Shown: positions 3,101-13,471 of the stretch, one piece after another
Numbering within the stretch: the first letter of the stretch is position 1
Layout: the number at the start of each line of letters is the position of its first letter
NCBI GenBank assembly: GCA_020852255.1
Contig: JADZBD010000015.1
Span: 124,001-188,000 of the forward strand
Source: Bacteroidia bacterium
GTDB taxonomy: Bacteria; Bacteroidota; Bacteroidia; JADZBD01
Direction: 5' to 3'
Length of the DNA: 64,000 nt
The notes under the pieces: model-generated
The model's database searches: none
The model's input: the letters and a program-made list of their open reading frames with translations, nothing else
What the model was told of the DNA's origin: nothing
Program-made: the position numbers and the translations under genes

Positions 3101-4214
3101 CTTTCAGTGAATCTGTACCGGAGGTGTTGATGTAATTAAATGTAAGCTGTTTGGTAAGGATGGAAGTTGAAAAATCAAGATAATAATCCAGGTTGCCGAT
3201 TTGCGTGGTCCGGGAATCATAGGAATGAAAGCGTGCAGTATTCCCCGAAGCAGGAGAAGCTACTGTAAAAGCCCCGTTCACGCCACCCCATCCGGAAAAA
3301 ACGGTGGTTGTTGTATTCTGGCGCCACGATGAATTTCCACGTGAAGGCCAGGAACCCCAATTCGTAGTTGGAACATCCTGTGTGTTTGCCCAGTTCAGCC
3401 AGGCACCATCGAATGTTTGCATAACACCGAGGGCACCGTAAACAGGCGCTGCCGGCGCTGCGGGAGGAGCCCAGGTCCAGGTTTGGCCGCTGGTCGGAAC
3501 ATTTGTTGCACTATAGGTACAGGTGTTTGTATTTCCGGTGCCTGTAACTGAAGCATTCCATCCGGCTGTAACAAGCCTGTTCGAATAATCCGTGTTGTTA
3601 CCTCCGCGCAAGCCCACCTGCCCGGTGCGGTTGGCAGAGGAAGGCAAACAGTTTCCGTAGACAATGGCAACGGAATTAGTAGACTGTATGAGCTGGATCT
3701 GGAAATTCATTTGCATGACAGCATCTGTAGTGCTGGAGCGGACATCCTGGTATTGGATCACGAATACATAGTTCCCTGGCGTTCCGAGCAGTTCTGAACG
3801 GATTTCCGGTGTTCCAAGAGCCGATGCAGACAACGTTGCGCCGAAGCCGGAAATGATTCCGCACTGCCCTGACGGAACCGTGGTGGATGAGATGGGAGCT
3901 GAAACGGTTAATGCCGGAACAACCGATGGACCCCAGCCCTGCCGTTGTCCGGCCTGAGACGCACCAAACCAGATGAATCCGTTGTTTGAAATTCCGATGT
4001 CTGTATAGGTATTTCTGTCGTATGTAAAACTAAATCCCAGCGGTATGCCGGCGAATACTGCATCGGTATTTAATGCAACTCCTGTTTGGTGCACTGTACC
4101 ACCCGTAATCGCGGTGTAAGTACCTGAAGTTTCACTAAAAGTGTAACCCGAAACCTGAGACCGGCCGTTAAAAAATAATGCCAGCGAGAGCGTAAGAAAG
4201 GAAATGATTTTCAT
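102..4214 (-). CDS. Large T9SS type A sorted surface protein with P-domain, five Ig-like repeats and PKD domain
   Basis: This is a predicted secreted or surface protein of 1370 residues. An N-terminal signal peptide (about 1-19) is followed by a beta-rich region and a MAM/choice-of-anchor-J-like region (about 260-435). Residues 600-723 resemble a proprotein convertase P-domain. Five tandem Ig-like repeats of about 68 residues follow at 785-1124, each with an LGxDxxxCGG start, a DAGNPG turn, a YxWxxxATTQ core and a VTDxNGC end. A sixth, degenerate unit is at about 1125-1200. A PKD domain with WDFGDGSP lies at 1203-1275, and the T9SS type A sorting domain at about 1288-1370 (AYPNPSNGTVTF, LPNGIYTLEV). 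In this family the C-terminal domain directs export across the outer membrane. No enzymatic domain is evident, so adhesion or matrix binding is an inference. The gene is followed by a clear terminator and looks monocistronic. Confidence 0.9.
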   Translation of the reverse strand: MKIISFLTLSLALFFNGRSQVSGYTFSETSGTYTAITGGTVHQTGVALNTDAVFAGIPLGFSFTYDRNTYTDIGISNNGFIWFGASQAGQRQGWGPSVVPALTVSAPISSTTVPSGQCGIISGFGATLSASALGTPEIRSELLGTPGNYVFVIQYQDVRSSTTDAVMQMNFQIQLIQSTNSVAIVYGNCLPSSANRTGQVGLRGGNNTDYSNRLVTAGWNASVTGTGNTNTCTYSATNVPTSGQTWTWAPPAAPAAPVYGALGVMQTFDGAWLNWANTQDVPTTNWGSWPSRGNSSWRQNTTTTVFSGWGGVNGAFTVASPASGNTARFHSYDSRTTQIGNLDYYLDFSTSILTKQLTFNYINTSGTDSLKVFLSTDGGLTFGPSVSVQTIAPAWNTVIVNLGTSTSSTCVVRFSAVGDWGTTDIGLDNVIVEPVAPIDMGATMLVSPLVNGCFTSTETVTVTIRNYGTNLIDFSLLPVSVDASVTGPNPQTFTTVIVNTGTLAPNATQNVVVATGYDMSAAGTYTFSAFTTVAGDGLPANDAMAAANRVVVSVSASIPPVSPVCQGSQTNLQVNFTPSYVQPMSFTYAGLLNIPDNFLGGIDAPFTVSGVPGSYVLSSITLDTLTHTFDNDMDISILAPDASQIDLCSDNGGAGDNFYNTVFSMSAVTPVTAGVAPFSGMFLPEQSFSLLTGPLNGTWYLRLVDDLGGDVGALRRATITFTDANAGYYSIASYSWAPAAGLSSVTVANPVASPTVTTTYTVTATAVNGCTYTATVTVNVNTLPAVALGPDQSVCGGLLLDAGNPGSTYLWNTSATTQTINATATGIYSVIVTDGNGCSNTDVINLTVFPAPSLSLGPDFSQCGGSALLTASGNWASYLWSTSATTQSISVSTGGSYLCTVTDLNGCTTTDTINVTIYTPPTVTLGSNQTQCGGTVLLDAGNPGASYLWNNNATTQQITVSSSAIYSVVVTDMNGCTASASVTITIHPIPAVALGPDISQCGGTILLDAGNPGSGYQWSNAATTQQISVTASGSYSVVVTNVFGCSNSDTINITIFTPPAVTLGNDTTLCGDSLLLDAGNPGSSYVWSNSASTQQIFVSVSGTYSVIVTDVNGCSATDVIIVNISQNPVFSVNDTSICQGNSVMLIAPPGYAAYEWTDGIITSSQQFITVAPAQTTQYVITVWNGAGCFSTDTVTVTVLTVPSPSFSFNITSLNNVSFTNTSVTPPFSSVWDFGDGSPFSTLTNPNHVYASNGTYNVVLTVSNQCGSTSTFQSVVISGLGMGELNLNGMISAYPNPSNGTVTFSGKGLPEGELLIRTMDLSGRQLEIFRKRIAGGDVSQELDLSLLPNGIYTLEVFCGTARGYFTVSLQK
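843..1862 (-). repeat. Five tandem ~204-bp coding repeats (Ig-like units)
   Basis: These are five in-frame units of about 68 codons encoding Ig-like domains of the surface protein at 102-4214. The units share LGxDxxxCGG, LLDAGNPGSxYxW, ATTQxI and YSVxVTDxNGC motifs. Their similarity makes copy-number change by recombination plausible. They are coding repeats, not spacers or CRISPR units. Confidence 0.85.
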
Positions 4215-6426: not shown

Positions 6427-8493
6427 TCAGGTCATTCGTACACCTATCACCAGCACATCGTCGGTTTGTTCGAATGCGCCCTTCCATTCCGTAAACCAGG
6501 CTCTCAGTTTTTCTTCCTGTTCACGGCAGGAGAGGCGGCTGATGCCCTGAATGAATTCACGGAATTTACGGTTGGTCATTTTCTTATTGTTAGACCCCCC
6601 GAACTGGTCGGCAAAACCATCCGAAAAGATATAGACTAAATCCCCTGCACTCAGATCTACACTGTGCGTGGTAAATGGCCTCTCAGTCACCAGGGCGGTT
6701 CCCACCGGCAGTTTATCAGGCTTGATGTCGCTGAACGTTCCGTCATTTCGGAAGATCCACAGCGGATTATTCGCCCCTGCGTACTTCACCTTATTACCCG
6801 GACTGATCACGCATAGTGCGGCATCCATCCCATCGCGGCTGTCGTCTTCCGCTCCTGTTTGCTTAAGAGAATGCTTCACCTTTTCTCTGAGTCTGTTCAG
6901 TATTTGCCCCGGATCCGTTATACCATCCTCCAGCACAATCTGGTTCAGAAAAGCATTGCCTATCATACTCATAAACGCCCCGGGAACACCATGCCCCGTG
7001 CAATCCACCGCTGCAATGATCCGGTCGCCGTTTCTTTCTCCAAACCAATAGAAATCCCCACTCACTACATCGCGCGGCAGAAGCAGGACAAAGGCTTCCG
7101 GAAAAAGCCGGAATTTCATTTCCTTCTCCGGAAGAATCGCCTGCTGTATCCGCGACGCATAGGAGATACTGTCGGTTATATCCTTGTTTTTTTGAGCGAT
7201 AATCGCATTCATCTCCTGTAAGATACGATTCGATTTTTGCTTGCCCAGGTAACGCAAATAAAGAACCACTATCACCACTGCCAGTGCCGCCAGCATCAGC
7301 GCACCCGCCATGCGTGTATTTTTCACCCGTTGTTCCTCCAGTTCCTTTTCCTTGTTCAGCAGATCCTTTTCCTTTTGCACCATTTCCTTTTCAAATTCCT
7401 TCTCCGTGGCCTCCACTTTGAGTCTTTCCACGTTCACCAGAGAATCGCGGAGTTCCGTGGACAAAGTAAAATAATGCAACGCTCCTTTATAATCACCTTT
7501 CTGTTCATAGATTTTATGCGCGCTGTGGTAAAGGGAAATCAGTACATCTCCTTCCTTGAATTCACGTGCTATCTCTATTCCTTTCTTTACATATTCCTCC
7601 GCATCGTTCCAGCGCTTCAGCTGCATCAGCAATTCTGCTTTATTCTGGTAGGCAACACCCAGATTATGCAGGTATCCTTTGCTCTTACTGATCATAATAG
7701 AGGAATCCAGCATCATCATGGCTTCATTCACCTTTCCCATCTTCATCAAAGGCGTGGAAATATTGAACATTACCATAGAAACTCCTTCCCAGCTCCCCTG
7801 TGAACGGTGTAACTCCAGCGCTTCCTTAAATGTGTTATACGATCCCTGCCAGTCACCCATATACGCGTAGGTGCTGGCAATATTATTCAGGGCGGTAGAT
7901 AATTTTCTCATGTCGCCCGTGCGTTCAATAATCTCCCTGGCATCCTGGAATTCTTTCAGCGATTCCTGGTACTTCCCCAGCTTGGCATACACACCGCCCG
8001 TGCCCATAATCGGCAGCACCATGTTGTTGGTATCGTTGTACATCTGAAAAACCTTACGTGCCGCCACATAGTACTCCATGGCTTCGTTGAGTTTGCCTTC
8101 ATCGCTCCGGATGAGACCGATATTGTACCAAGCTATATATGCCGCCACGGAATCCTTATCCTGCAAATGCGTTTTGTACGCCAGCATATAATGATCGTAA
8201 GCCTTGATATTGCTTCCAACATTGCCATAGGCCGTACCGAGGTTGTTGTAAATCTTTCCCAGCAGCCGCAGGTCGGTTCCTCTCAAAGCGTAAGCCAGCG
8301 CAAGTTTTCCGTGCTGAATTGCTGTTCCGGGGTCGTTGCTCTTCAGCCGCCGGAGCAGCTCATAATGGGTTTTCATCAGCACGGTATCTACCTTGCTGTT
8401 ATTAATGATCTGCAGGAGGGAATCGGTTTTCCGGTCGGAAGCCGTGCTGGTAAAGAGCGTAAAAAGGAGCAGAAGGATCAGGGTCGGTCTCAC
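6427..8493 (-). CDS. TPR protein with transmembrane helix and SpoIIE/PP2C phosphatase domain
   Basis: This is a 688-residue regulator with a GTG start. It has a signal peptide, then a periplasmic array of about seven to eight tetratricopeptide repeats (about 25-340). A Glu/Lys-rich coiled coil precedes one transmembrane helix (about 395-415), after which comes the linker ITDSISYASRIQQAILPE. The C-terminal SpoIIE domain shows SGDFYW, AVDCTGHGVPGAFMS, GMDAAL, IFSDGFADQFGG and QTDDVLVIG, so the acidic metal ligands of active PP2C phosphatases appear intact. The likely role is to convert an envelope signal, read by the TPRs, into dephosphorylation of a cytoplasmic partner. It is the first gene of a two-gene unit with the 7TMR-DISM phosphatase 6 bp downstream. 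A TAATTTTA box lies 4 nt before the GTG. Confidence 0.9.
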   Translation of the reverse strand: MRPTLILLLLFTLFTSTASDRKTDSLLQIINNSKVDTVLMKTHYELLRRLKSNDPGTAIQHGKLALAYALRGTDLRLLGKIYNNLGTAYGNVGSNIKAYDHYMLAYKTHLQDKDSVAAYIAWYNIGLIRSDEGKLNEAMEYYVAARKVFQMYNDTNNMVLPIMGTGGVYAKLGKYQESLKEFQDAREIIERTGDMRKLSTALNNIASTYAYMGDWQGSYNTFKEALELHRSQGSWEGVSMVMFNISTPLMKMGKVNEAMMMLDSSIMISKSKGYLHNLGVAYQNKAELLMQLKRWNDAEEYVKKGIEIAREFKEGDVLISLYHSAHKIYEQKGDYKGALHYFTLSTELRDSLVNVERLKVEATEKEFEKEMVQKEKDLLNKEKELEEQRVKNTRMAGALMLAALAVVIVVLYLRYLGKQKSNRILQEMNAIIAQKNKDITDSISYASRIQQAILPEKEMKFRLFPEAFVLLLPRDVVSGDFYWFGERNGDRIIAAVDCTGHGVPGAFMSMIGNAFLNQIVLEDGITDPGQILNRLREKVKHSLKQTGAEDDSRDGMDAALCVISPGNKVKYAGANNPLWIFRNDGTFSDIKPDKLPVGTALVTERPFTTHSVDLSAGDLVYIFSDGFADQFGGSNNKKMTNRKFREFIQGISRLSCREQEEKLRAWFTEWKGAFEQTDDVLVIGVRMT

Positions 8494-8556: not shown

Positions 8557-8564
8557 GGGGGGGG
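8557..8564. repeat. G8 homopolymer in the divergent intergenic region
   Basis: A run of eight G, followed by G5 at 8576-8580, lies between the divergent TPR-SpoIIE gene and glyS. It is upstream of the predicted -33 of glyS and outside any predicted -33/-7 spacer, so a role is uncertain. Such tracts are prone to slippage. Confidence 0.5.
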
Positions 8565-8640: not shown

Positions 8641-10179
8641 ATGAACGAAGACCACTTTAAAAACATTATTTCGCACGCCAAAGAGTATGGCTTTATATTT
8701 CAAAGCTCAGAGATCTATGACGGTCTCAGTGCCGTATACGATTATGGTCAGAACGGGGCGGAATTAAAGAACAACCTGCGTCAGTACTGGTGGAAGAGCA
8801 TGGTACAGCTGCACGAGAACATTGTGGGGATTGATTCCGCCATTTTCATGCATCCCACCATTTGGAAGGCTTCAGGACATGTGGATGCATTTAACGATCC
8901 TTTGATTGACAACAAGGATTCAAAAAAACGATACCGGGCAGATGTACTCATTGAGGAGCATGTGGGAAAGATCGAGGCGAAGATGGAGAAAGAGGTGGAA
9001 AAAGCTGCCAAGCGTTTTGGAGAAACCTTTGATGAAAAGATGTACAGGGCTACCAACCCAAGGGTTCAGGAATATCAAAAGCAGGTTGACTCGATCAATG
9101 CCAAATTCAAGGATTGCCTTGATCGGGGTGATTTAGAAGGGGTCCGTCAGATTATTGTTGACTGTGAAATTGTGTGCCCGGTTTCCGGGTCAAGAAACTG
9201 GACGGAGGTGCGGCAGTTCAATCTTATGTTTTCTACCCAAATGGGCTCCGTGAGTGAAGATGCGGGCACCATTTATCTTCGACCGGAGACAGCGCAGGGT
9301 ATTTTTGTAAATTTTTTGAATGTGCAGAAGACCGGGAGGATGAAGATTCCGTTTGGTATTGCACAAACGGGAAAGGCGTTCCGCAACGAAATTGTTGCCA
9401 GGCAGTTTATATTCCGGATGAGGGAATTTGAACAAATGGAAATGCAGTTTTTTGTGAAGCCGGGAACCGAAATGGAGTGGTACCATCAATGGAAGGCAAC
9501 TCGCATGAAATGGCACCACAGTCTTGGGTTTCCTGAAAACAAATACCGTTTTCACGATCACCTGAAGCTGGCGCACTACGCGAACGCCGCCTGCGACATA
9601 GAATTTGAATTCCCGTTTGGTTTTAAAGAACTGGAAGGAATTCATTCCCGTACGGATTTTGACCTGGGCAGTCATGAGAAATTCTCCGGAAAGAAGTTGC
9701 AGTATTTCGATCCGGAGGAGAATAAGAGTTATGTGCCTTATGTGGTAGAAACGAGCATAGGATTAGACCGCTTGTTCCTGGCAACCTTATCCGCCTCGCT
9801 GAAAACAGAAAAGATCGATGACGGTTCAGAGCGTACGGTTCTTAGTCTGCCCCCTTTTCTTTCGCCTGTTAAAGCCGCTGTTTTACCATTGGTAAATAAG
9901 GACGGACTCCCGGAAAAAGCACGTGAAATCATGGATCTGCTGAAGTATGATCACAGGGTCTTCTATGAAGAAAAAGACACTATTGGGAAGCGTTACCGCC
10001 GGCAGGATGCTGTGGGTACTCCACTCTGTATTACGGTAGATCATCAAACGCTAACGGACCAAACAGTTACCATTCGTGATCGGGATACGATGAAGCAGGA
10101 GCGGGTTGCGCTATCTGCCTTGCGCGAGATCGTGGATAAGAAAGTGAGCTGGCGGGAGGCGTTGAGGACATCAAACTGA
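8641..10179 (+). CDS. glyS: Glycine--tRNA ligase (single-chain, dimeric type)
   Basis: Glycyl-tRNA synthetase charges tRNA-Gly with glycine and ATP in the cytoplasm. This is the class II alpha2 type (512 residues), not the alpha2beta2 type. Visible features are the N-terminal DYGQNGAELKNNLRQYWW segment, the LRPETAQGIFVNF motif, the motif 2 region FRNEIVARQFIFRMREFEQ, and the class II end GLDRLFLATL. The C-terminal anticodon-binding domain contains SPVKAAVLPL and YRRQDAVGTP. The start at 8641 (MNEDHFKN) is preferred. An in-frame ATG at 8596 would add 15 residues that do not look like the family and would overlap the predicted promoter. The gene converges on the adhesin-like gene with only 4 bp between the stops. 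Confidence 0.97.
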   Translation: MNEDHFKNIISHAKEYGFIFQSSEIYDGLSAVYDYGQNGAELKNNLRQYWWKSMVQLHENIVGIDSAIFMHPTIWKASGHVDAFNDPLIDNKDSKKRYRADVLIEEHVGKIEAKMEKEVEKAAKRFGETFDEKMYRATNPRVQEYQKQVDSINAKFKDCLDRGDLEGVRQIIVDCEIVCPVSGSRNWTEVRQFNLMFSTQMGSVSEDAGTIYLRPETAQGIFVNFLNVQKTGRMKIPFGIAQTGKAFRNEIVARQFIFRMREFEQMEMQFFVKPGTEMEWYHQWKATRMKWHHSLGFPENKYRFHDHLKLAHYANAACDIEFEFPFGFKELEGIHSRTDFDLGSHEKFSGKKLQYFDPEENKSYVPYVVETSIGLDRLFLATLSASLKTEKIDDGSERTVLSLPPFLSPVKAAVLPLVNKDGLPEKAREIMDLLKYDHRVFYEEKDTIGKRYRRQDAVGTPLCITVDHQTLTDQTVTIRDRDTMKQERVALSALREIVDKKVSWREALRTSN

Positions 10180-10183
10180 CGCC

Positions 10184-12733
10184 TTATCGAACCAGGTGAA
10201 AATAACCTGAATAGGTTGTTGATTGCCCATCTGCGTATTCTCCGGTGAGGAGATAATAGTAAACCCCCTCAGAAGCAGGAATACCACTCGCCGTAAAACC
10301 TTCCCACTGCATCTTGTCGCCCTGAAGATGAACGACCAAATTTCCCCACCGGTTATAGATGTCACATTTCATTTCAGACATTCCGGAATTAGGAAATAAC
10401 AGAACATCATTTATCCCATCTCCGTTCGGTGTAAAAATGTTCGGGTAATATGTACCGAATACTCTTAAACATAAAGTTGTATCAACCCTACACCCAATAG
10501 TATTAAGCAAAGTAAAATCAAAACAAGCAATTCCTGTGTCCTGGGCGAAAAAGCACCAGCTACTGACTGGTGATTGGGTTAAATTAGTTAGAATATAACT
10601 GGTTGATTGTGTATTAAGGGAGTTCTGATCAATACATAACTCCTCCCCTAAATGGATGATTGAATCCGGGCTGCTCAGGGTTAAAATTGGTTGAGGGGGG
10701 GGATACGGCGTGACGGTAAAAGAAACTGGATTCGAAGGACAGTTGTTAACATCCGTCACGGACAATGTGTATGTAGTTTGGGAAGAAGGAGATGCCCAAA
10801 ATGCGTTTCCATTAGACCCTTGGGGCATCCACGTGTAAGAATACCCGGGATTACCACCCGTTGCGTTAGCTATAAACAGAACACTGTCTCCCATGCAGAT
10901 ATTTGTGTCCTGAATGGCGCTCAAAACCAATGGAAAAGGAGACATGACTTGCACGGTGTCCTTTACCATGCACCCGTTGGAATCCGTGACTGCTACAGTG
11001 TACTGTCCCGCACCCAAGCCAGTTGGAGAGGCGGTTGAAAGCGACCCCGGCATCCATACATAGCTATACGGCGGATCGCCACCACTAGGCAATACTAGTG
11101 CTGTGCCGTTACTATACATGTAACAAGAAACATTTGTGGCGTTGCTGCTCAAGGACAGTGGTGTTGCGGGTTGCGAAACCTGAAAATTAGCCGTGTCAAC
11201 ACAACCAGCTGCATCAGTTACCAGTACTGAGTAGGTGCCTGCGCAAAGGCCCGAGGAGGTGAACGTTGTGGAGCCGTTCTGCCATAAAAAAGAGTACGGT
11301 GCAGAACCACCGAAAGGATTTGCATAAGCAAACCCGTTGCAACTACCATTGCATGTAGCAGAGGCAACGATCAGATTTGATTGCAATACCGGAGGCTCTG
11401 TTAATGAGATTAGTGGCTGAATTACACAACCATTAGCATCCGTAATTGAAACGGAATAAGCTCCTGCTGGTATTCCTGATATAAAGTTAGTAGTTGCGCC
11501 AGTCGACCATAAATATGAATATGGGGGTGTACCTCCCAGAGGTGAAACAATAATACTTCCGTTTGTGCTACCATAACAAGTTGGAATGACTAACTGAGGA
11601 TTTAAAATTCCCAATCCGGTTGGGGAAGTTATTAAAACGCTATCAGTGACCTTATAATTGCATCCAGAAGCGTCAGTAACTACGATCGTGTAACTTCCCG
11701 CCGATAATCCCGTTGCCGACTGTGTTGTTTGAACAGGGTTAGTCGACCATGAATAAGAATATGGTGGAATCCCCAAGCTGGGATAAGTAGTAGCTGTCCC
11801 CGTAGCATTACCGAAACAATCTGCCGGTAAGCTATCTGTAAATGTTAGAAGTACAGGAAGGTTATTGCAATTGAGGCAACAAGTTGATCTGGAATATGCC
11901 CATTTTACTGCAGCAGAGTAACATTCTGTTGAAGACATGGTTGTGCCAAAGTGAAAGTGAAGCGGTCCGGGTTGAACATAAGATATCCTGGTTGTATCAA
12001 TTAGCGTCCACATTCCTGGAGTTGAATTAACAGTTGACCCTGGAAACACCGTTTGAAACGGATAGGTTTCAACGTCTGAAAGGATTATCCCCTGCCTTGA
12101 ATAACTGCTATTACAAGGTAGAGACAAACCTGAGAAGAATTGTGCATAAGCCCCTGGAACATTTTTCCTGATCTCCGGACCCTCTATTAATAGAAGCTCA
12201 CCATTCCAGGTTGAAATAGTTGTGTCTCTGTAAACAACTATAATGCTGGCTCCATCCATATCATTATTTGGGTCGGTCAGTATTGTCGGTAACCCGGAAA
12301 TCACATACGAACCATTGCCACAGATCACAGAAGTAATATCTGCTTTGTAAAGATATGTCCCAGAAAAACCCCAACACTTATCTGTATCGCTTCCGGTAAT
12401 ATTCAATGGAATACTGAAACTTGACAAGGCAGGATTGGTAATATTCAATGTTACAGGAACCCCATTTCCTGAGGATTGGGCATAGAAAAAGGCTCGTTCA
12501 ATGATCGCGCTCGAAGGTATTCCGGTTAAATTCATGCCCGCAGGTTGTAAAACTCCGGTTAGAGTGCCTCTTTGCGCAAGTGTTACGGAAGCAGTAGTGT
12601 ACCCAAGGCCGCACTTTTTAATGTAGAAGGCGCTGTCGGAACGAGCTGATAATGAATATGTAAAAAGAAAGGTGATGATTAAAAAGATCATTCCCTTTGA
12701 AATCAACACCTTCCCAAAATTAAACGCACTCAT
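10184..12733 (-). CDS. SprB-repeat adhesin-like protein with T9SS type B (gliding motility-associated) C-terminal domain
   Basis: This is a secreted protein of 849 residues. A hydrophobic signal segment lies at about 15-32, and a second possible start, M15, would give a cleaner signal peptide. A beta-rich N-terminal domain (about 35-290, DUF3344-like in appearance) is followed by four SprB-type repeats (about 298-370, 377-445, 450-520, 527-597). These have GGxPPYSYxW, TGLxAGxYxVxVTDxNGC and related motifs. A PKD-like segment follows. The T9SS type B domain at about 765-849 has NIFTPNGDGINDVL, IYNRWG and EGVYYYLLTG. SprB itself is the mobile surface adhesin of gliding Flavobacterium, so a role in adhesion is inferred. 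A C8 tract lies at codons 678-680. The gene is 12 bp downstream of the small T9SS gene, and both are visibly AT-richer than their neighbours. Confidence 0.9.
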   Translation of the reverse strand: MSAFNFGKVLISKGMIFLIITFLFTYSLSARSDSAFYIKKCGLGYTTASVTLAQRGTLTGVLQPAGMNLTGIPSSAIIERAFFYAQSSGNGVPVTLNITNPALSSFSIPLNITGSDTDKCWGFSGTYLYKADITSVICGNGSYVISGLPTILTDPNNDMDGASIIVVYRDTTISTWNGELLLIEGPEIRKNVPGAYAQFFSGLSLPCNSSYSRQGIILSDVETYPFQTVFPGSTVNSTPGMWTLIDTTRISYVQPGPLHFHFGTTMSSTECYSAAVKWAYSRSTCCLNCNNLPVLLTFTDSLPADCFGNATGTATTYPSLGIPPYSYSWSTNPVQTTQSATGLSAGSYTIVVTDASGCNYKVTDSVLITSPTGLGILNPQLVIPTCYGSTNGSIIVSPLGGTPPYSYLWSTGATTNFISGIPAGAYSVSITDANGCVIQPLISLTEPPVLQSNLIVASATCNGSCNGFAYANPFGGSAPYSFLWQNGSTTFTSSGLCAGTYSVLVTDAAGCVDTANFQVSQPATPLSLSSNATNVSCYMYSNGTALVLPSGGDPPYSYVWMPGSLSTASPTGLGAGQYTVAVTDSNGCMVKDTVQVMSPFPLVLSAIQDTNICMGDSVLFIANATGGNPGYSYTWMPQGSNGNAFWASPSSQTTYTLSVTDVNNCPSNPVSFTVTPYPPPQPILTLSSPDSIIHLGEELCIDQNSLNTQSTSYILTNLTQSPVSSWCFFAQDTGIACFDFTLLNTIGCRVDTTLCLRVFGTYYPNIFTPNGDGINDVLLFPNSGMSEMKCDIYNRWGNLVVHLQGDKMQWEGFTASGIPASEGVYYYLLTGEYADGQSTTYSGYFHLVR
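10695..10702 (-). repeat. C8 homopolymer inside the adhesin coding region
   Basis: Eight consecutive C on the coding strand encode Pro678-Pro680. Gain or loss of one or two bases would shift the frame ahead of the T9SS type B sorting domain. Such a product could not be secreted and anchored normally. Confidence 0.8.
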
Positions 12734-12745
12734 AAGATAAATATA

Positions 12746-13366
12746 CTACTCCTTGAGGACTTTATCAAATAACAATACTTTGTCTCCACACACCACCTGA
12801 ATGAAATATAGCCCATTGGATTGATTGCGAATATCGATAGAAACTACTCCTTCCTTTGCCGTTTGCTCTTGAATCAATTCGCCAACAGAATTGTAAACTC
12901 TAACGGATTTTAACTCGCTTGAAGCGGGCAACTTCAGGTTAAATTCTCCTCCAGAAGGGTTAGGAAAGATCGTAATTTCTGAATTCGGCTTAGTTGGTGC
13001 TTCAAGAATATCCCCAATCCTGCAGCAAGAAAGGTCCTGCCTGTAAGTTACAGTCACCGCATCTGTGGCATATCCACATGTTTGATGAGTTACTGTAACA
13101 GTATAGGTGGTTGTAGCACCCGGTGCAGCAGTTGGATTAGCGACAGTTGTACTACTTAAGCCTGTTGACGGAGACCAGCTGTAACTAAACAATGTACATG
13201 AACATCCTGTAGAACTCCCGGTTGGACTTCCGCCAATAGTTGGTGGTGCACAACATGGCATTTGAATTGTGTTTGGTCCTGCATCTGCTACAATTGTACA
13301 TTGAGCATTGACAAAGACTGCACTAAAGATTATTAGAGCAGTCAATATTAGCTTTGTGTTTTTCAT
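12746..13366 (-). CDS. Small secreted protein with PKD-like segment and T9SS type A sorting domain
   Basis: This is a 206-residue exported protein. Its signal peptide ends near VNAQ (residue 21). A cysteine-rich stretch (MPCCAPP, TGCSCTL) is followed by a PKD/Ig-like unit (WSPSTGLSSTTVANPTA, TTYTVTVTHQTC). The C-terminal T9SS type A domain starts at about residue 132 (ITIFPNPSGGEFNLKL) and ends with LYFIQVVCGDKVLL. The first half repeats a motif seen in the PKD-like part of the large T9SS protein at 102-4214. It is the first gene of an operon with the SprB-repeat protein. The function is unknown, and a surface partner of that adhesin is only a guess from context. The predicted promoter carries a G8 tract in its spacer. 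Confidence 0.85.
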   Translation of the reverse strand: MKNTKLILTALIIFSAVFVNAQCTIVADAGPNTIQMPCCAPPTIGGSPTGSSTGCSCTLFSYSWSPSTGLSSTTVANPTAAPGATTTYTVTVTHQTCGYATDAVTVTYRQDLSCCRIGDILEAPTKPNSEITIFPNPSGGEFNLKLPASSELKSVRVYNSVGELIQEQTAKEGVVSIDIRNQSNGLYFIQVVCGDKVLLFDKVLKE

Positions 13367-13438: not shown

Positions 13439-13471
13439 CAAACATATGAACAAGGGGGGGGCATTTCCAAA
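13439..13471 (-). promoter_or_regulatory. Predicted promoter with a G8 tract in the -33/-7 spacer
   Basis: On the minus strand the -33 element TTTG (13468-13471) and the -7 element TATGTTTG (13439-13446, an exact TAnnTTTG) are separated by 21 nt. The spacer contains a run of eight C (G8 at 13454-13461 on the plus strand). It would drive the operon 13366 to 10184 with a leader of about 65 nt. Length change in the run would alter the -33/-7 spacing directly. Confidence 0.65.

Follow-up and report, generated by a model that had tools for sequence, protein, structure and literature searches.

The SprB-repeat gene P0001 is located on the reverse strand of the analysed window (the whole stretch of 64,000 nucleotides), and its product combines the two sequence features by which we recognised a type B SprB-repeat protein of the type IX secretion system (T9SS), i.e., PF13573 repeats (E value 1.3e-29, five stretches) and a TIGR04131 match above the cut-off (residues 763-849, 45.8 bits vs. 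35). The same region was matched by PF13585 (CHU_C; residues 763-846, 62.7 bits vs. a cut-off of 27), the N-terminus was judged by eye to be hydrophobic, and surface secretion is predicted. The repeats and the TIGR04131/PF13585 domain are shared with SprB-repeat gliding and adhesion proteins that carry a type B domain; P0001 differs from the known members in its size of 849 residues and in an N-terminal part (approximately residues 36-290) that only paralogs and relatives share, with an identity of roughly 35-40%. The spacing of only 12 bases suggests that the gene for the small type A protein P0002 is the first gene of an operon and is probably co-transcribed with the SprB-repeat gene (Table 1).

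Table 1 Features of the locus and related runs and elements elsewhere in the genome.
Feature	Position	Strand	Basis or remark
G8 run, third of the cluster	8557..8564	.	Intergenic; flanked by a SiaA-like TPR/phosphatase gene (6427-8493, -) and by glyS (8641-10179, +)
SprB-repeat protein P0001, 849 aa, T9SS type B sorting domain	10184..12733	-	ORF and profile matches
CHU_C / TIGR04131 sorting domain, residues 763-849	10187..10447	-	Profile match; lost by a slip that is not a multiple of three
C8 run (G8 on the + strand)	10695..10702	-	Codons 678-680, Pro-Pro-Pro, in frame
Best-scoring SprB repeat, residues 384-414	11492..11584	-	PF13573 match
P0002, 206-aa small T9SS type A protein (Por_Secre_tail)	12746..13366	-	12 bases upstream of the SprB-repeat gene
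Promoter-like element TTTG-21-TATGTTTG, spacer with C8	13439..13471	-	Layout matches the consensus in the available part of PMC7366714
C8 in the promoter spacer	13454..13461	-	Better-supported candidate switch of the operon
Four-copy promoter-like family	window 13439-13471 (-); L132 (G000:C12) 1835-1860 and 4004-4038; G000:C4:161980-162011		
Coding-strand C8 encoding a Pro run	L002 (SPFH/GYF protein), L007 (SprB-repeat gene of the window), L010 (START-like)		
Coding-strand C8 encoding a Pro run	L013 and L014 (one cut ORF), L015 (TonB)		

The first-pass annotation had claimed that a C8 tract encodes Pro678-Pro680 of the SprB-repeat protein and that a one-base change would introduce a stop ahead of the type B domain, and we confirmed both claims by reading the tract, its frame and its codons. 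The run begins exactly at codon 678 (TAT CCC CCC CCT CAA, Y-PPP-Q), in a linker that lies at 80% of the ORF, where the last Ig/SprB-like module gives way to the C-terminal part. Frame computation placed the stop after 683 residues for a tract of 7 C and after 701 for 9 C, and after 700 and 684 residues for 6 C and 10 C, respectively. All four products end before the sorting domain begins at residue 763, and every slip that shifts the frame removes it. The tract therefore has two features of a contingency locus, namely a G/C run of at least 7 within an ORF (a cut-off taken from the available part of PMC6321876) and a length that decides between a full-length and a truncated product.

The frequency of such runs was compared to chance by shuffling synonymous codons in the 43 genes of the window (500 rounds), which gave an expectation of 0.87 coding G/C runs of at least 8 against the one observed, so that the excess over codon use looked for in a contingency locus was not found in these genes. 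A first-order Markov model of the window had been tried as the null and was rejected since it overestimates runs (22.5 runs of 6 expected vs. 5 seen), and the codon shuffle was relied on for this reason. For the SprB-repeat gene taken alone, a run of at least 8 arose in 2.4% of the shuffles, a low value because CCC is used for only 8 of its 58 prolines. Across the whole assembly (3,284,239 bases, a draft of 28 contigs) we counted 67 G/C runs of exactly 7, 16 of exactly 8 and 17 longer ones, with lengths of 9 (ten runs), 10 (four) and 11 (three), the latter 17 being counted from overlapping matches. These counts fall steeply from 7 to 8 and flatten from 9 on, suggesting that any special class of long tracts starts at about 9 and not at 8. 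Three of the 16 exact-8 runs are located within 4.9 kb of each other in this window; when runs were placed at random, a trio this tight arose in 3.5% of trials with 33 runs and in 0.36% with the 16 exact-8 runs, in a post hoc test that ignores contig structure. The intergenic G8 of this trio was found outside any recognised promoter spacer.

In a wider comparison, the reading frame was determined at 20 runs of at least 8 in or near ORFs of the genome. All exact C8 runs that were placed on coding strands genome-wide (6 of 6, including that of the SprB-repeat gene) encode proline runs. Runs of G9-G10 were found inside genes for an enoyl-CoA hydratase (L022), trpS (L026), an ispE-like protein (L037; TIGR00154, 141.3 bits vs. 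138.7) and holA (L041), which indicates that coding runs of such length are tolerated where an on/off switch would serve no purpose. The tracts of the hydratase and ispE-like genes encode glycine-rich LGGG stretches, which we take to be conserved motifs of those enzymes. A caution follows for genome scans of this kind: G/C runs of 8-10 in the genes of this organism frequently do no more than encode stretches of proline or glycine, and this extends to trpS, the ispE-like gene and holA; tract length alone is therefore no marker of a phase-variable gene. An intact mutS1 was also found, at 917.5 bits and above its family cut-off.

In two other surface genes of the genome, the reading frame as assembled breaks precisely at a G tract (signal peptides in this set were judged by eye). 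In the first, a Por_Secre_tail gene (L016; G000:C25, G8 at 1502-1509), the signal-peptide part and the mature part lie in different frames on either side of the tract, which comes directly after the signal peptide; the shift is possibly a sequencing error. In the second (L042; G000:C27, G10 at 1501-1510), the signal-peptide frame ends at the tract, within the region coding for the signal peptide; its paralog L023 (G000:C2, G11 at 1501-1511) is in frame and reads through. No Pfam match was obtained for L042 or L023. Since both L016 and L042 lose their frame exactly at the G tract, switching by coding G tracts may occur in this organism, and a tract as short as 8 may be enough. An intact paralog was observed directly upstream of L016, which lies close to a contig end.

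Homologues of the SprB-repeat protein proved to be distant, the best full-length identity being about 40%. Of the eight pattern matches from a single-protein GTDB scan, none was confirmed, and within 40 genomes including the source genome only distant SprB matches and no close ortholog were found; the only other genome of the same family among them (G001) reached 38% identity at best. The glyS locus of G001 has a small P0002-like T9SS gene at a distance of 6.2 kb, and no SprB-repeat gene was found beside glyS as judged from ORF ends, which precluded a syntenic comparison. Eleven homologous C-terminal regions were aligned with P0001, and the linker was proline-rich in most of them (VHPNP, VFPLP, AYPNP and similar). 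P680 was invariant across an 11-sequence alignment, P678 and P679 were variable, and a stretch of PPP or longer occurred in one homologue of the 11 (L079, PPPP). No G/C run of at least 7 was found in ORFs of 400 or more residues on the 11 homologue stretches, L079 included. Homologues that keep the prolines with mixed codons had been named beforehand as an observation that would speak against a switch, and the homologues agreed with this in part: P680 was kept throughout and L079 has its prolines without such a run, whereas P678 and P679 were not kept. At the homologue loci of 29 other genomes, a single one of the 29 longest ORFs had a G/C run of at least 8, and its genome gave 191 matches to G9 compared to 27 in the source genome. 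A further 80 loci came from named genomes, of which the 52 with an ORF bearing the sorting-domain signature were counted (191,235 bases) and the 28 without such an ORF were left out; none of the 52 ORFs contained a G/C run of at least 8. Among these distant homologues (11 stretches, 29 genomes and 52 ORFs), the tract was thus not found to be kept.

A second C8 lies upstream of the operon, in the spacer of a promoter-like element roughly 70 bases from the start of P0002. TTTG and TAnnTTTG are the Bacteroides promoter consensus as cited in PMC7366714 (part of which was available). The three best-matching paralogs in the genome (contigs C4 and C12) share the layout and differ in the length of the C tract, the four copies having tract and spacer lengths of C8/21, C9/20, C11/23 and an interrupted C6/20, and each of these elements precedes a small gene of the Por_Secre_tail type. 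A genome-wide search for the layout returned these four places alone and nothing in the reversed control; because the search pattern was drawn from the same four copies, only the absence of others is informative. With a G run in place of the C run, the layout was found at 0 places in the genome compared to 3 in the reversed control. The two relatives in G001 had no tract. The tract is therefore located between two promoter elements whose spacing differs among the copies, as in a promoter-spacer switch, and, judged by layout, the promoter C8 is a credible switch and the more likely candidate of the two tracts. The promoter-spacer poly-G switch of Neisseria porA (available part of PMC3639595) offers a likeness, in that the upstream C8 of the operon lies between both promoter elements and the paralogs vary in tract length and spacing. 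It differs in that the predicted elements here are those of Bacteroidota (TTTG / TAnnTTTG), and the likeness applies to the upstream tract and does not extend to the coding C8.

We consider it likely that the coding C8 is incidental, a consequence of three proline codons at a domain boundary, and at most a low-rate off switch, because coding runs occur at chance level, exact C8 runs originate from proline runs, housekeeping genes carry runs as well and the tract is absent from homologues. At the assembled length the full-length protein would be made, and a slip would yield a product without the sorting domain that would be retained or degraded; at a length of C8 and with mutS present, the site would behave as a low-rate hot spot for loss of function rather than as a tuned on/off switch. 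The more likely point at which operon expression would be switched is the promoter, with a C tract that would determine how far apart the -33 and -7 elements lie. Against an incidental origin stand the value for the SprB-repeat gene alone, the G8 trio, the two surface genes out of frame and the fact that Campylobacter G/C tracts of at least 8 do vary (PMC6321876, available part). The proposal of two independent switches, one for level and one for on/off, gained support for its promoter half (a C8 in the spacer and paralogs with other lengths), whereas the coding C8 as an evolved second switch was not upheld in view of its chance frequency, its proline run, homologues without the tract, its position at 80% of the ORF and equal or longer runs in housekeeping genes.

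An alternative that we regard as unlikely, and that was kept under consideration because of L016 and L042, is a two-tier contingency locus in which operon level would be set by the promoter C8, while slipped-strand mispairing at the coding C8 would toggle the SprB-repeat protein between a secreted and a non-secreted form. The truncation of slip products before the sorting domain, the four-copy promoter family with its varied C tracts, the loss of frame at a G tract in two other surface genes of this genome and the cluster of three G8 would all agree with such a locus. However, one coding run against 0.87 expected, the proline-run origin of the coding C8, its late position (codon 678 of 849), its absence both from the aligned homologues and from the 52 ORFs of named genomes, and the presence of mutS argue against it. 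The coding tract shares with the poly-G/C contingency loci of Neisseria (hmbR/hpuA, PMC3786947) and Campylobacter (phasome, PMC6321876), as described in the available parts of these sources, a G/C run of at least 7 in the ORF of a surface protein where a slip would truncate the product. It differs from them in its chance frequency, its absence from homologues and its position late in the ORF; moreover, its host is a member of the Bacteroidota with mutS, and the tract is known from one assembled length. If the coding tract did switch, one operon would combine independent control of adhesin level and of secretion.

It is improbable that the three prolines matter as a peptide, either as a rigid interdomain linker or as an EF-P-dependent pause before the sorting domain, with the C run following from codon choice: the invariant P680 and the proline-rich linker site of most aligned homologues fit such a role, but P678 and P679 are not conserved and only L079 has PPP or longer. 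An assembly error with a true run of another length is barely credible. In its favour, homopolymers are error-prone in some sequencing methods and the assembly is a 28-contig draft; against it, the assembled length leaves the ORF open with a complete sorting domain, and the large genes of the window show no interruption.

More broadly, a Bacteroidota lineage with homopolymer phase variation on T9SS surface proteins, comprising the four-copy C-tract promoters and coding G/C tracts, with both tiers united in the SprB-repeat operon, appears rather doubtful as a whole. The phylum is better known for invertible promoters. No homopolymer switch in T9SS proteins was reported in the titles and abstract beginnings of literature on homopolymer phase variation, Bacteroidetes/Bacteroidota, Flavobacterium, SprB and type IX secretion. 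The four-copy promoter family is a better lead than the coding tract.

A small Por_Secre_tail gene was repeatedly observed ahead of a second surface gene (L129 and L130 in G001, L131 and L132 in G000), the second gene resembling a beta-propeller gene in the case tested (L131). Within one genome, copies located at separate sites appear almost identical at the ends of their ORFs, suggesting that the small gene and the surface gene behind it form a recombining cassette.
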